DNA from: Flammeovirgaceae bacterium
GTDB lineage: Bacteria; Bacteroidota; Bacteroidia; Cytophagales; Cyclobacteriaceae
DNA length: 7,843 nucleotides
Reading direction: 5' to 3'
NCBI GenBank assembly: GCA_022616575.1
Contig: JAKEEN010000026.1
Span: 1 to 7,843, forward strand
Positions 2,907 through 7,215 of the stretch are shown piece after piece. Positions within the stretch are counted from its first letter, which is position 1. Each line of letters opens with the position of its first letter. The position numbers and the translations under genes are program-made. The notes below the pieces were generated by a model. The model had not been told where the DNA came from, did no database searches, and was given only the letters and a program-made list of their open reading frames with translations.

Positions 2907-4097
2907 ATGACGGATTACTACGAGGTGCTGGGGATTTCAAAAAATGCAGATTCCACAGAAATACGCGTGGCCTATAAGCGTTTGGCCATGCTCTACCACC
3001 CCGATCGCAACCCAGGTAATCCCGAAGCCGAAGATATGTTTAAGCTGGTGAATGAGGCCTATCATACGCTGGCCGATGTATTAAAGAAGGCACGCTACGA
3101 TGCGCGGCTGTACTCTATCCAGCTACCCCCTGTTTACACCAATACCGAATATTGGCAGGAAGTACATCGTCATCGCTATGAGCGCTGGCGCTATGCCAAT
3201 CGCGAATCGCGTTATAAGTTTGATAGAGAGTATTTCAAAATTCAGGGCCTTGCCTTCCTGGTATTTATTATCATCTCAGGGTTCTGCTTTGCCATTATTC
3301 ACGCAGGCAATTACCTGATCGAGTTGAAAAAAGCTGATATGCAAGTTCGGTACACCAGGATATTAGTTCAGGTAAACAACCTCTTTACCCATGGTAAGGT
3401 AGATGAAGCTTTTGGGATGATCGAAGCACTGCGCAAGCAGGATCCACTTGAGATGCGATTTATGATCGCTGAAGACAGCCTTATTATTCAGCTACGTGCT
3501 TTGGCAGAATCAAACTACAAGAAAAATGTAATTGATAGTTCTTTGCACTACTACAAATTGCTAAAGAAATATGAACTGGCCCCGCGTATTGAAACATTGA
3601 AAAAAGTTGCCGATTGCGAACTTAAACTCGGTAAATATCAGGATGCGCTCCTATCCTTAAAGCAACTTTACAAACAGCAACCCTGGAGCCTGGACCTTAT
3701 TAACCGGATCGCCCAGATTAATCTTCGTCAGCTGGATAATCCCACCGAAGCCCTTGAATACTTTACAATTGGCAAGGAACTCTTTAAGAAAAATATGTCG
3801 GCTGTTTATGGTGAGGCATTTTTGCTGGTGATTAATCCGGCTGACCTGCCAGAAGTTTGCAAAGACATTTTTGAAGGCCGTGCACTTGCCAATAAACAAC
3901 TCGGTTTTTATTCAGAAGCTTTGAAAGATTGCAACTGGATTATTATTCTTAAATCGGAGGATGGCAACGCATACCTATTCAGGGCAGAAATCAAAGACCT
4001 GGCCAATGAGCGTGACGGACTTTGCGCTGATTTATTCAACGCGCGAAAATACGGAGCCACCCAAACATCAGAATTGAGCAGGAAGTATTGTCAGTAA
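2907..4097 (+). CDS. Membrane-anchored J-domain protein with C-terminal TPR repeats
   Basis: This is a co-chaperone that should stimulate the ATPase of a DnaK-type Hsp70 at the membrane. Residues 2-66 form a J domain with the H31-P-D33 motif between helices II and III. There is no Gly/Phe-rich linker or zinc-binding cysteine cluster, so it is a class C (type III) J protein, not DnaJ itself. A strongly hydrophobic segment at about 113-132 is a single transmembrane helix, preceded by an Arg/Tyr-rich stretch (about 88-110). Residues 150-396 are helical with degenerate TPR-like repeats, ending in a Lys-Tyr-Cys-Gln tail. With one helix, the J domain and the TPR part would face opposite sides of the membrane. 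A J domain in the cytoplasm places the TPRs in the periplasm. It is probably the first gene of an operon with the TerB-like gene. Client specificity is unknown. Confidence 0.9.
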
Positions 4098-4138
4098 AAG
4101 CACCTTCTAAAGTTGATTTTTTTTACGAACTTGAAGCC

Positions 4139-4576
4139 ATGACCGAGAAACTCTCCAAAGATCAATTAAACTCCATTAAAAAGAGTTATTTCAATATACT
4201 GGCCCTATTTCTTGATCAAAAAACCATCGAATCAAAATATCTACGGTGTTTGCTAAAATGGGGATTTCAGTTGCACCTATCGCCTGATGATTTAAAGAAG
4301 GCTTCCATCAATGTTACTCATTTGGCCTTTACTCAGCCTGCCGAAAAAGTAGAGAAACTCGAATCCATTTTTCACTTGGTTCAAATGATTTACCTTGATA
4401 AAGTAGTGGAGGACATTGAATTAGAAGTGGCCAGCATTTATGCCGAAAAACTGGGCTTCCATGCGTCCGTAGTGAGCGAGCTTTTCCAGTCCATAGCTAC
4501 CGCCAAGTACGATGAGGATAATCACCCGGCAGTACGTCAGCAGGTACTGGATTTCCTGAAGCTCTATAATGTTTAG
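4139..4576 (+). CDS. TerB-like (DjlA N-terminal-type) helical protein
   Basis: From the ATG at 4139 this is a 145-residue, all-helical, soluble protein. The stretch at residues 80-107, with hydrophobic residues, an aspartate and spaced glutamates (D88, E91, E94) before a second helix ending L-G-F, resembles the core of TerB/DjlA-N domains. It lacks the usual A-D-G triplet, so the assignment is tentative. An upstream in-frame TTG at 4088 would add 17 residues and overlap the J-domain gene by 10 bp. I prefer the ATG because TTG starts are rare, but the extension cannot be excluded. DjlA fuses a TerB-like and a J domain in one chain; here the two are neighbours, which suggests the products work together. 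A 7-bp-period repeat starts at its stop codon. Confidence 0.72.
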   Translation: MTEKLSKDQLNSIKKSYFNILALFLDQKTIESKYLRCLLKWGFQLHLSPDDLKKASINVTHLAFTQPAEKVEKLESIFHLVQMIYLDKVVEDIELEVASIYAEKLGFHASVVSELFQSIATAKYDEDNHPAVRQQVLDFLKLYNV

Positions 4577-4623
4577 AGTCAGAAGTCAGAATCCAGAATT
4601 AAGTATCCAGAATCCAGAATCAG
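4576..4623. repeat. Degenerate 7-bp tandem array
   Basis: From the last base of the TerB-like stop codon the sequence falls into heptads: gagtcag, aagtcag, aatccag, aattaag, tatccag, aatccag and a final aatcag. The consensus is close to AATCCAG/AAGTCAG. It fills nearly the whole gap to the next start codon at 4626. Its period and sequence resemble the AGTTAGA array at 7132. Confidence 0.75.
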
Positions 4624-4625
4624 CC

Positions 4626-5105
4626 ATGATGAAAACACTTACCCTTATCCTGCTGCTGTTGTCAGCAGTACCTTCGCCAGCTCAAACAGAATCCATTCAG
4701 CAAATCAACCAACTCATTGATAACTGGCACCTTGCAGCCACCAAAGCTGATGCCAATGCGTTCTTTGGATTTATGAATGATAACAGCATCTACATTGGAA
4801 CCGATGCAACTGAGCGCTGGACGAAAACGGAGTTCGTAAGCTTTGCAAAACCCTATTTTGATAAGGGCAAGGCGTGGGACTTTAAGCCCTACGATCGCGA
4901 TCTTCACGTAACAAATGAGGGTAATTATGCATGGTTTTCAGAGCTTTTGACTACCTGGATGGGAACCTGCCGTGGCTCGGGTGTGCTTATAAAGACCGTA
5001 AATGGGTGGAAATTAGAGCAATACCATCTTTCTGTAACAGTTCCCAATGAAATAATCCGCGAATTCATCGATTTAGTGGAAAAATCATCAAAAAAAGAGG
5101 ATTAA
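4626..5105 (+). CDS. Exported NTF2-like (SnoaL/DUF4440-type) protein
   Basis: The 159-residue product has a signal peptide: M-M-K, a leucine-rich core, then P-S-P-A-Q as the likely cleavage region near residue 19. The mature part has the pattern of NTF2-like cone-fold proteins: an N-terminal helix (I-x-Q-L-I-D-x-W), a segment F-x-x-M-N-D-N-S-I-Y-I-G-T-D and alternating strands ending in G-W-K-L-E-Q-Y-H-L-S-V. Such proteins are either small enzymes or ligand-binding modules, and nothing here fixes which. A frame open from 4569 would add 19 residues, but these are encoded by the heptad array, so the ATG at 4626 (or 4629) before the signal peptide is chosen. It is 49 bp after the TerB-like gene and possibly in the same transcript. 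Confidence 0.8.
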   Translation: MMKTLTLILLLLSAVPSPAQTESIQQINQLIDNWHLAATKADANAFFGFMNDNSIYIGTDATERWTKTEFVSFAKPYFDKGKAWDFKPYDRDLHVTNEGNYAWFSELLTTWMGTCRGSGVLIKTVNGWKLEQYHLSVTVPNEIIREFIDLVEKSSKKED

Positions 5106-5231: not shown

Positions 5232-5255
5232 TATCGTACAAAACGCAAAGACCCC

Positions 5256-5474
5256 ATGACAACCACAGTAATCTCAAAATCAAGAAAATTAGTAGTACTG
5301 ATTGTAGTGATTATTATCGGAGTGTTCTTTAATGCGTTTACTTCTGAAGCAAAAACCAACCCGGCAAAGAAGGCAAACAAAGTGTACAACAATGCATGTG
5401 CGAAACTAAGCAAGAAGCACAGTCAGACTGAGAATTACAAAGTATCTATTAGCAAGAGACCCAGTTGGAGATAA
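5256..5474 (+). CDS. Small basic exported or membrane-anchored protein, copy 1
   Basis: I do not recognise this 72-residue protein. It has a short basic N-terminus (K-S-R-K at 8-11), a hydrophobic segment at about 12-28 and T-S-E-A (29-32), a possible signal peptidase I site. Cleavage there would release a 40-residue peptide with about ten Lys/Arg and a single acidic residue. The core Y44-N-N-A-C48-A-K-L-S-K-K-H-S-Q-T-E-N60 recurs in the next gene, and C48 is the only cysteine. The ATG at 5256 is chosen over a GTG at 5199 because it sits right before the export segment, and because the sequence just before it is shared with copy 2. Without cleavage it would be a bitopic membrane protein. Conservation between the two copies argues that it is a real gene. 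Confidence 0.75.
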   Translation: MTTTVISKSRKLVVLIVVIIIGVFFNAFTSEAKTNPAKKANKVYNNACAKLSKKHSQTENYKVSISKRPSWR

Positions 5475-5497
5475 GAAATAAAAACCCAAAAGACCCC

Positions 5498-5848
5498 ATG
5501 AGCCAATCCAGTTATAAAGACTTAGCCAATATTAAGATATCGGCTCGTATTAAGCAGGTAGTTGTCTTAATCATTGCCATCATACTCGGTATACTGCTTT
5601 CTAAAGAAGCAGATGCCAGACACTTCCCTGGTAAGAAGAACAAGAAAAAGTACGCGAAGGTAAAATACAAAGAGCAGAATGTTAAATATGTGAATGCCTG
5701 TAACATCCTTGATAAGAAGCATTCACAAAAAGAAAATATTAGAGTAGCCGTTAAAGAACCACGCTATAAGCCATCGGCAGAGTTTGATCCTTCAGCCCCA
5801 CGGGTTTTATCAAACCCTGACATGGGCATTGCAAAGGCAACATTCTAA
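5498..5848 (+). CDS. Small basic exported or membrane-anchored protein, copy 2
   Basis: This 116-residue paralogue of the preceding gene lies 23 bp downstream. It has a longer N-terminus (about 19 residues), a hydrophobic segment at about 20-34, and E-A-D-A (37-40), a good signal peptidase I site. A very lysine-rich stretch follows at about 46-58. The shared core is Y64-V-N-A-C68-N-I-L-D-K-K-H-S-Q-K-E-N80, aligning with copy 1 without gaps at a constant offset of 20 residues; 13 of 20 positions (44-63 against 64-83) are identical. C68 is the only cysteine. A proline-containing tail (about 87-116) is absent from copy 1. The ATG at 5498 is preceded by AAAAGACCCC, as in copy 1. A strong terminator follows. 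Function is unknown; secretion or membrane anchoring is inferred. Confidence 0.78.
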   Translation: MSQSSYKDLANIKISARIKQVVVLIIAIILGILLSKEADARHFPGKKNKKKYAKVKYKEQNVKYVNACNILDKKHSQKENIRVAVKEPRYKPSAEFDPSAPRVLSNPDMGIAKATF

Positions 5849-5889: not shown

Positions 5890-5928
5890 AGGCGCTTTCG
5901 GAGGGGTCCGGGGCGCCTTCTTTTTTTT
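5890..5928 (+). terminator. Intrinsic terminator of the small-protein pair
   Basis: AGGCGC (5890-5895) pairs with GCGCCT (5913-5918). Inside, CGGA (5899-5902) pairs with TCCG (5907-5910) around a GGGG loop, joined by a small TTT/GG internal loop. TTC and a run of eight T follow (5919-5928). This is the most G+C-rich hairpin in the window. Confidence 0.88.
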
Positions 5929-5949: not shown

Positions 5950-7137
5950 ATGATGGACTATAGCCCTGAGGTTTTTTTAAACAACATTGCCCAGACTACC
6001 CCCTTTCCTTTTTTAATCCCTGTTGAACGCGCTGAAGGAATTTACCTTTATACTCCCGAGGGTAAGCGCTATACCGATCTTATTTCAGGAATTGCCGTAA
6101 GCAACATAGGCCATAGACATCCGCATGTAATCAATGCCATTCAATCACAACTTGAAAAGCACCTTCATGTGATGGTCTTTGGCGAATACATTCAATCAGC
6201 GTCAAACAGGCTTGCGAAGAAATTAACTGAATTGCTGCCCCCCTCACTCAACTGTACTTACTTTGTGAACTCAGGTACCGAAGCCAATGAAGGCGCGCTG
6301 AAATTGGCTAAGCGCTTTACCGGCAGAACAGAAATTATTTCATGTCGAAAATCATACCACGGCAGTACACATGGTTCGATGAGTGTATCAGGCAACGAAA
6401 TAAAAAAATATGCCTTCAGGCCTCTGCTTCCGGATGTGCGCTTTATTGACTTCAATAAAATGGAAGAGTTGGAAGCCATCACAGACCGAACGGCCTGTGT
6501 TATTATGGAAACGATTCAGGGCGATGCCGGAGTGCGTGTGCCTTCAAAATCATACATGAAGGCCGTACGGAAGAAATGCGATGAGACCGGGACGCTTCTG
6601 ATACTCGATGAAATTCAATGCGGTATGGGGCGCACGGGTACCCTCTTTGCCTTTGAACAGTTTGACATCGTGCCAGATATTCTGACTATAGCGAAAGCAT
6701 TTGGCGGTGGTTTACCAATCGGTGCTTTCATTGCTGATAAGAACCTGATGCAAACACTCACGCATGATCCGATGCTCGGCCATATCACTACCTTTGGTGG
6801 AAACCCTGTATGCTGTGCCTCGGCTTTAGCAACCTTAGAGGTAATCGAAAAAGAAAAACTGCTCGATCAGGTTGAAAAAAAAGGGAAGCTGATTGAAAAC
6901 TTATTGAAACACCCACTGATCAAGGAAGTCAGGCGCATTGGATTGATGTTCGCCATTGACTTTGATACACAGGAACGTGTGGAAAAGATTGTAAAATATG
7001 CCATGGACAAAGGTGTTATTACATTTTGGTTTCTCTCCCATCCCAACAGCTTTCGGATTGCCCCCCCGTTGACTATTACTGAAGAAGAAATCAAGGAATC
7101 ATGCCAGGTTATTGTAGAGGCTATTGATAGGAGTTAG
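5950..7137 (+). CDS. Class III PLP-dependent aminotransferase (acetylornithine/ornithine type)
   Basis: This cytoplasmic fold-type I enzyme transfers an amino group, typically from an omega-amine such as N-acetylornithine, ornithine or 4-aminobutyrate, to 2-oxoglutarate. It is full length at 395 residues. Visible features are the phosphate-binding S-G-T-E-A-N (108-113), Y136-H-G stacking on the cofactor, E187 in E-T-I-Q-G-D-A-G, D220-E-I-Q-C-G-M-G-R-T-G with D220 contacting the pyridine nitrogen, the PLP-binding K249 in T-I-A-K-A-F-G-G-G, and T281-F-G-G-N-P. The common E-P-x-Q-G-E-G-G motif reads E-T-I-Q-G-D-A-G here, so I do not assign argD or rocD. No arginine-pathway genes are nearby. The start is the ATG at 5950 or 5953, only 21 nt after a terminator. 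The stop codon lies in a tandem repeat. Confidence 0.94.
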   Translation: MMDYSPEVFLNNIAQTTPFPFLIPVERAEGIYLYTPEGKRYTDLISGIAVSNIGHRHPHVINAIQSQLEKHLHVMVFGEYIQSASNRLAKKLTELLPPSLNCTYFVNSGTEANEGALKLAKRFTGRTEIISCRKSYHGSTHGSMSVSGNEIKKYAFRPLLPDVRFIDFNKMEELEAITDRTACVIMETIQGDAGVRVPSKSYMKAVRKKCDETGTLLILDEIQCGMGRTGTLFAFEQFDIVPDILTIAKAFGGGLPIGAFIADKNLMQTLTHDPMLGHITTFGGNPVCCASALATLEVIEKEKLLDQVEKKGKLIENLLKHPLIKEVRRIGLMFAIDFDTQERVEKIVKYAMDKGVITFWFLSHPNSFRIAPPLTITEEEIKESCQVIVEAIDRS

Positions 7138-7193
7138 AAGTTAGAAGTTAGAAGTTAGAAGTTAGAAGTTAGAAGTTAGAAGTTAGAAGTTAG
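7132..7193. repeat. Tandem 7-bp repeat AGTTAGA, eight perfect copies
   Basis: Eight exact copies of AGTTAGA run from 7132 to 7187, and a ninth (AGTTAG, then G instead of A) ends the array. The first copy contains the aminotransferase stop codon TAG. Degenerate heptads continue as agatgag, gagacgg and gagatga to 7215. Because 7 is not a multiple of 3, three units place TAG in every forward frame and TAA in every reverse frame. Confidence 0.97.
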
Positions 7194-7215
7194 GAGATGA
7201 GGAGACGGGAGATGA

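Follow-up and report, generated by a model that had tools for sequence, protein, structure and literature searches.

Small single-span membrane proteins of the CydX, AcrZ and KdpF kind are among the closest described counterparts of the family analysed here: they measure about 30–50 residues, contain one hydrophobic helix and are kept by selection. Part of our family is of the same build, i.e. those relatives reduced to a hydrophobic leader, with 35–64 aa and an omega of 0.02–0.11. No sequence relation is claimed in this likeness, and there are differences: the two genes of our window are longer (72 and 116 aa), and relatives carry a cysteine tail or an OmpA domain. Proteins with the OmpA/Pal/MotB C-terminal domain (PF00691) provide a second comparison; in relatives the module that forms the tail of the window genes precedes a true OmpA domain, whereas the window genes themselves are without it.

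The leader has also to be compared with export signals. A Q-rule for signal peptidase I sites has been described in Bacteroidetes (PMC5837995), and the relatives with A-x-A-Q agree with it: this sequence occurs at the predicted cleavage site in 33/44 proteins with a cysteine tail. On the other hand ordinary Sec signal peptides are less conserved—judging by a small control—and the leader described here also occurs without a mature part. A signal peptide with its own function is found in the enterococcal pheromones of the cAD1 type (PMC7074142); these come from lipoprotein precursors, whereas in our family entire genes have shrunk to the leader, for which release as a pheromone is not suggested.

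A duplicated pair of tail-bearing genes

The window—the whole stretch of 7,843 nucleotides analysed here, from a Flammeovirgaceae bacterium—contains on its forward strand gene A (5256..5474) and gene B (5498..5848), which encode proteins of 72 and 116 aa, each from an ATG. The ORF list gives them as frames of 91 and 127 aa from upstream TTG/GTG starts; the ATG forms were analysed. The same 12 bases including the start codon, AAAGACCCCATG, are found at both genes (5247..5258 for A and 5489..5500 for B, both + strand). The gap between the stop of A and the start of B is only 23 bases, so that co-transcription of the two is likely, and a terminator-like hairpin with a T run stands behind B (5890..5926, +).

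Gene B is made of a typical leader, a Cys helix and a disordered K-P-x-A-E-x-D-P tail. Its leader (5498..5617, +; residues 1–40, ending ...KEADA) matches the leader profile with E 4.1e-18 and displays the conserved N-x-x-I-x-x-R-[IL]-[KR]-Q, then the hydrophobic helix; a lysine-rich segment (5633..5725, +; residues 46–76), helical in the model, holds the sole cysteine of the protein, Cys68 (codon 5699–5701, +). Gene A has a diverged leader (residues 1–32), whose match to the leader profile is weak (E 0.0054) and fails the 1e-4 cut, and a short Cys tail with again a sole cysteine, Cys48 (codon 5397–5399, +); the K-P-x-A-E block present in B is missing from A. Behind the hydrophobic segment the net charge is +10 in 40 aa for A and +12 in 76 aa for B.

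The cores of A and B, YNNACAKLSKKHSQTENYKV and YVNACNILDKKHSQKENIRV, are identical at 13/20 positions without gaps. Local alignment of A with B scores 105, the best of 5,000 shuffles 62; with the hydrophobic segments removed the score is 79, and 53 for the best shuffle. In a tree of tails—short sequences with weak deep support, used solely for this point—A and B are sisters with support 0.86. A and B are paralogues, a duplicated tail-bearing pair. An earlier note on this DNA, made from its letters, had described the adjacent genes of 72 and 116 residues, the gap-free core with 13 identities (indeed above chance), one Cys per protein and strongly basic tails, all of which we recover; its export-type hydrophobic segment in both proteins is supported too. 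It had confined the similarity to the core, and this has to be corrected: the similarity also spans the hydrophobic N-terminal segment, which is the more widely kept part.

The model of B (31-row alignment; mean pLDDT 77.9, pTM 0.30) displays helices at residues 6–39, the leader, and 46–76, with Cys68, then a disordered tail; pLDDT is 87–95 over the block of residues 51–80. Foldseek returned 0 matches for this model in the PDB. The amphipathic moment is above shuffles in 4/5 helices, that of B itself not being so (0.09 vs 0.16), and the Cys lies 45–94 degrees off the hydrophobic face; this amphipathicity is not counted as evidence.

Relatives and taxonomic range

When a set of 5.8 billion proteins was searched with single sequences, nothing matched except the query protein itself or one near-identical copy, and B alone had no match among genome contigs and viral contigs. 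From the former result alone one would take A and B for orphans. Clear relatives nevertheless emerged when a profile with A and B as its two rows was applied to 390 genomes of the taxonomic family of the window; as its matches at E<=1 (139 genomes) include many chance matches, no count is taken from them. The alignment of relatives, 41 rows with the window pair included, has the Cys as its single invariant column (41/41), others being near-invariant, and the corresponding profile raised the matches in the protein set to 6, the relatives there carrying the name “hypothetical protein”. Homologues thus exist past close strains, contrary to what the earlier note had named as a refutation, and tandem copies, which the earlier note proposed to look for, are found in relatives. 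The Lys-Lys-His-Ser that it put forward as a signature does not extend to the family: H-S-Q is particular to A and B, while Lys-[Lys/Arg]-Arg is commoner among the aligned relatives, in most of which the sequence is A-C-x-[IL]-L-x-K-[KR]-R.

The family is real and unnamed, as the earlier note had supposed; no curated family matched it. A and B have nothing above the cut-off in Pfam and no match in PHROGs or PADLOC, and their best NCBIfam match (for A, E 5.5e-4) attains 20 bits vs a cut-off of 80; none of 26 leaders matches Pfam at E<=0.01. A literature search for such a system in Cyclobacteriaceae came back largely empty, which is weak evidence of its absence from print.

A leader profile (A6), built from the first 41 positions, matches 84/390 family genomes and 11/84 genera at E<=0.01, the best E being 1e-19; for 77 of those 84 genomes the best E in the match table is <=1e-5. 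At E<=1e-4 it matches 8/291 genomes sampled at the order level and 4/247 at the phylum level, all from the same taxonomic family, so that none of these two sets of genomes has the family outside of it at this threshold. With the small-protein profile 29/291 order-level genomes match at E<=0.01; its matches outside the taxonomic family are weak (the best, 1.3e-5, in a 448-aa frame) and were treated as chance. Named records with relatives are from Cyclobacteriaceae. On these searches, the most widely kept part of the Cyclobacteriaceae family is the hydrophobic leader of about 40 residues.

A common genomic slot and three forms

Relatives sit mostly in one slot, whose order is GAPDH, DnaJ/TPR, a 162-aa gene, SnoaL, the family member and a class III aminotransferase; this order is common to the window and genome G024, and in part to many other genomes. 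In the window the upstream neighbour is a SnoaL-like protein with a signal peptide (4569..5105, +; Pfam PF13474, E 6e-29) and the downstream neighbour the aminotransferase (5950..7137, +; PF00202, E 1.1e-109). The 162-aa gene (4088–4576) encodes a helical protein without a Pfam match, which by eye may resemble TerB-like proteins; homologues of it are found in 35/59 relatives at E<=0.001. Behind the aminotransferase gene, at 7138–7194, the 7-base unit TTAGAAG is repeated in tandem.

The family member in the slot takes three forms: a leader with a lysine-rich tail containing a lone Cys, the same followed by an OmpA domain, and an ORF of 35–64 aa that is the leader only. A census of the loci of 86 genomes, from which the weak leader matches of G090, G207 and G397 were left out, gives 48 leader-only ORFs, 44 Cys-tail proteins and, for the OmpA forms, 2 that combine the leader with Cys helix and OmpA domain, 11 with Cys helix and OmpA domain behind another signal peptide, and 1 OmpA half. 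The leader is recognisable in 38/44 Cys-tail proteins, A of the window being among the 6 without.

Several weak matches of the two-row profile turned out to be ORFs ending at or just past the hydrophobic segment. In 32/48 leader-only ORFs the stop lies 16–20 residues past the start of the hydrophobic core, and the n-side is positive in 46/48. They keep the slot: the aminotransferase follows on the same strand in 42/48, within 400 bases for 40, and the remaining 6 have the usual neighbour genes upstream. A terminator-like hairpin is found behind 33/48 leader-only ORFs, for 8.9 expected in shuffles, and behind 33/45 tail-bearing genes, for 6.7 expected. The Bacteroidota -7 promoter box TAnnTTTG, considered as a shared upstream signal, was discarded: it is present in 1/48 and 0/45, under the shuffle expectation.

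A hidden or frame-shifted tail behind the leader-only ORFs was looked for by eye in 13 and by profile in all 48, and only G329 matches (E 9e-4; the next at 0.54), the same scan recovering 38/38 true tails as a control. In G329 the leader ends with S-L-H-A, followed by TAA; at this position G017, next to it on the aminotransferase tree, has CAA for the Gln just behind the predicted cleavage site. Past the TAA the in-frame residues are still tail-like, then further stops follow. A leader-only ORF could in certain genomes be just a remnant, and that of G329 may belong here.

In genus g86 a second type of ORF, of 39–41 aa with IESRI-x-H-R-[MI]-R-R..., is flanked by the family gene and the aminotransferase: L155:2815-2940 (G143) and, in a reverse-strand frame, L227:1920-2039 (G215). 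It is one more tandem copy resembling the leader, though very diverged.

The OmpA forms and the lone cysteine

In the OmpA forms the Cys helix and the K-P-x-A-E block precede the OmpA domain (PF00691, E 1e-12 to 1e-16). The Asp of G-H-T-D and the Arg of L-S-x-K-R are invariant in this domain (25/25 rows) and presumably bind peptidoglycan; solved relatives are 7rjj, 5u1h and Pal 2hqs. A scan of named genomes places 30/36 loci (L080–L109) in Cyclobacteriaceae and allied records—Chryseotalea, Chryseosolibacter, Chryseolinea, Pseudochryseolinea, Dawidia and Fulvivirga, plus MAGs—the other 6 matching weakly or by the OmpA domain only. Leader, Cys helix and OmpA domain are joined in one chain, within the slot, in G024 and G153; in the model of the leader-bearing form (mean pLDDT 76.6) residues 19–78 make one continuous helix, followed by a disordered linker and the OmpA fold. 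A Cys-tail protein adjoins the OmpA form in 8 genomes. In one of them, G303, the OmpA form is split by a stop into L039:1946-2272 (108 aa) and 2274-2726 (150 aa), which may reflect either a genuine fission or a fault in the assembly. The OmpA form stands outside the slot in G015, G125 and G161.

No OmpA form was found at E<=1e-25 in 63/80 member-bearing genomes (one of the 63 being the incomplete window genome), hence it is no obligatory partner. In Pfam A and B have no OmpA domain match. The window genome yields neither a further family copy nor an OmpA form; being 53% complete, it may have an OmpA form that was missed.

The earlier note had deduced a selection on the Cys core. One side of this stands: the Cys is kept in 55/57 tail-bearing relatives, and past residue 45 none of the 57 has another. 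The other does not apply to the whole family, in which 48 syntenic relatives keep the leader only. Moreover the Cys is not indispensable, since G319 and G406 (L221, L220) have lost it, with the sequence V-V-K-V-L-Y-W-K-R.

Selection on the leader and lability of the tail

In six groups totalling 21 genomes, omega of the leader-only ORFs, pooled over pairs, amounts to 0.02, 0.11, 0.04, 0.04, 0.07 and 0.09; these groups, like those below, were hand-picked among close sequences and their pairs pooled, so that the values are not independent. By sequence comparison the leader-only ORFs are under purifying selection. For Cys-tail genes omega is 0.05–0.12 for the leaders (five groups) and 0.08–0.17 for the tails (four groups, the fifth not being computable). 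With this low omega and its Cys in 55/57, the tail is also conserved.

As a control for export signals, the SnoaL signal peptide gives an omega of 0.56 (3 genomes) and 0.30 (4 genomes), the leaders of the same groups 0.02 (4 genomes) and 0.07 (6 genomes). In g86 the signal peptides of the OmpA form have 0.58 vs 0.11 for the small-protein leader in the same three genomes; in the g34 control the synonymous sites are saturated and omega is not computable, pN being 0.53 vs 0.12. The control sets are small and partly overlapping; all comparisons go in the same direction: the conservation of the leader exceeds what export alone would require.

Tail states were placed on a tree of the neighbouring aminotransferase (65 rows, quick method; 41 leader-only genomes, 24 tail-bearing). 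At least 10 changes are required, 5 of them forced by the starred, i.e. strong, branches; the labels are nevertheless clustered, as shuffled ones need 19.6 changes on average and 0/500 as few. This distribution indicates that tail presence is evolutionarily labile, repeatedly gained and lost.

Functional reading

Since the leader is kept with nothing behind it in some relatives, it probably needs no tail to act in the membrane. We consider it probable, with some reserve, that the leader is a self-sufficient single-span microprotein of the inner membrane and the Cys tail a predicted exported extension, repeatedly gained and lost. The leader would sit in the inner membrane, presumably with its N terminus inside, and may bind there a putative membrane partner, by analogy with CydX and AcrZ. 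In tail-bearing forms signal peptidase I would cut at the predicted A-x-A-Q, releasing to the periplasm a basic helix that probably dimerises through its lone Cys; in the OmpA-fused form this tail would be tied to peptidoglycan. In the window, A and B are duplicated tail-bearing members, B with a typical and A with a diverged leader. The bitopic membrane peptide, one of three roles envisaged in the earlier note, is thus the favoured one, though for the leader and not for the Cys core.

The fate of the tail deserves attention. Gln is at +1 of the predicted cleavage site in 13/13 OmpA forms and in 0/48 leader-only ORFs; the window pair has Arg41 (B) and Lys33 (A), not Gln. Among the relatives, the fit to the Q-rule holds where something is to be exported. 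Behind their hydrophobic core the Cys-tail proteins have a mean charge of +12.7, ahead of it one of +2.6, the former being much the larger in 38/38; with the positive-inside rule as sole guide, so basic a tail would, if uncleaved, be expected in the cytoplasm. The OmpA fusions and the predicted cleavage site rather speak for its export.

If the leader remains active once cut, signal peptidase would yield two working products, a membrane leader peptide and an exported Cys helix, of which many relatives would have shed the exported half, so that their genes would now code for the signal peptide only, under strong selection; we propose this only tentatively. It is just as doubtful a proposal that the leader then served as a platform for the gain and loss of exported tails, up to an OmpA anchor on peptidoglycan.

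These genes might instead encode ordinary secreted small proteins, the leader being a Sec signal peptide and the function residing in the basic Cys helix, perhaps a periplasmic disulfide dimer, a role that the earlier note had listed. The A-x-A-Q of 33/44 proteins, which agrees with the Q-rule (PMC5837995), would be expected of such proteins, as would the lone Cys of 55/57 tail-bearing members, the purifying selection on tails (omega 0.08–0.17 where computable) and the presence of the same Cys helix in front of the OmpA domain. This explanation is nonetheless unlikely in view of the 48 syntenic genes holding the leader without such a tail, 47 of them without a tail remnant at E<0.5, and of a leader omega below that of the control signal peptides.

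A membrane-anchored stalk was also considered: the leader would stay uncut and the Cys helix form the stalk of a MotB-like inner-membrane protein with its OmpA domain on peptidoglycan, which we find improbable; the stand-alone forms would derive from it by loss of the OmpA domain and either cooperate with the complete protein or compete with it, an equally poor prospect. The single chains of G024 and G153 that unite leader, Cys helix and OmpA domain, the modelled continuous helix 19–78 with the OmpA fold of one such chain, and the adjoining Cys-tail proteins of 8 genomes (one, G303, with the split of 108/150 aa) are consistent with it. The Gln at the cleavage site of 13/13 OmpA forms argues however for cutting, 63/80 member-bearing genomes are without an OmpA form, and the leader-only genes are left unexplained. 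That the leader-only ORFs, and by descent the whole family, belong to the small hydrophobic toxins found in type I toxin-antitoxin systems, or to peptides that depolarise membranes in a similar way, is very improbable: length and hydrophobicity fit, and some known bacterial membrane toxins are signal-peptide-like, e.g. TimP (PMC7667032), but the family occupies mostly one fixed chromosomal place across genera, is under strong purifying selection and has no PADLOC match.

We therefore return to the leader as a membrane microprotein with an optional exported tail. If this is right, the conserved product of these genes would be what is usually a disposable export tag, and the disposable part the “mature” protein. 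Leader-only ORFs of 35–64 aa are of a size easily missed by annotation. Together the relatives form a natural series—leader only, leader with Cys helix, leader with Cys helix and OmpA domain, and one gene with a stop at the predicted cleavage site—on which to test if signal peptides can have a function of their own as membrane microproteins.
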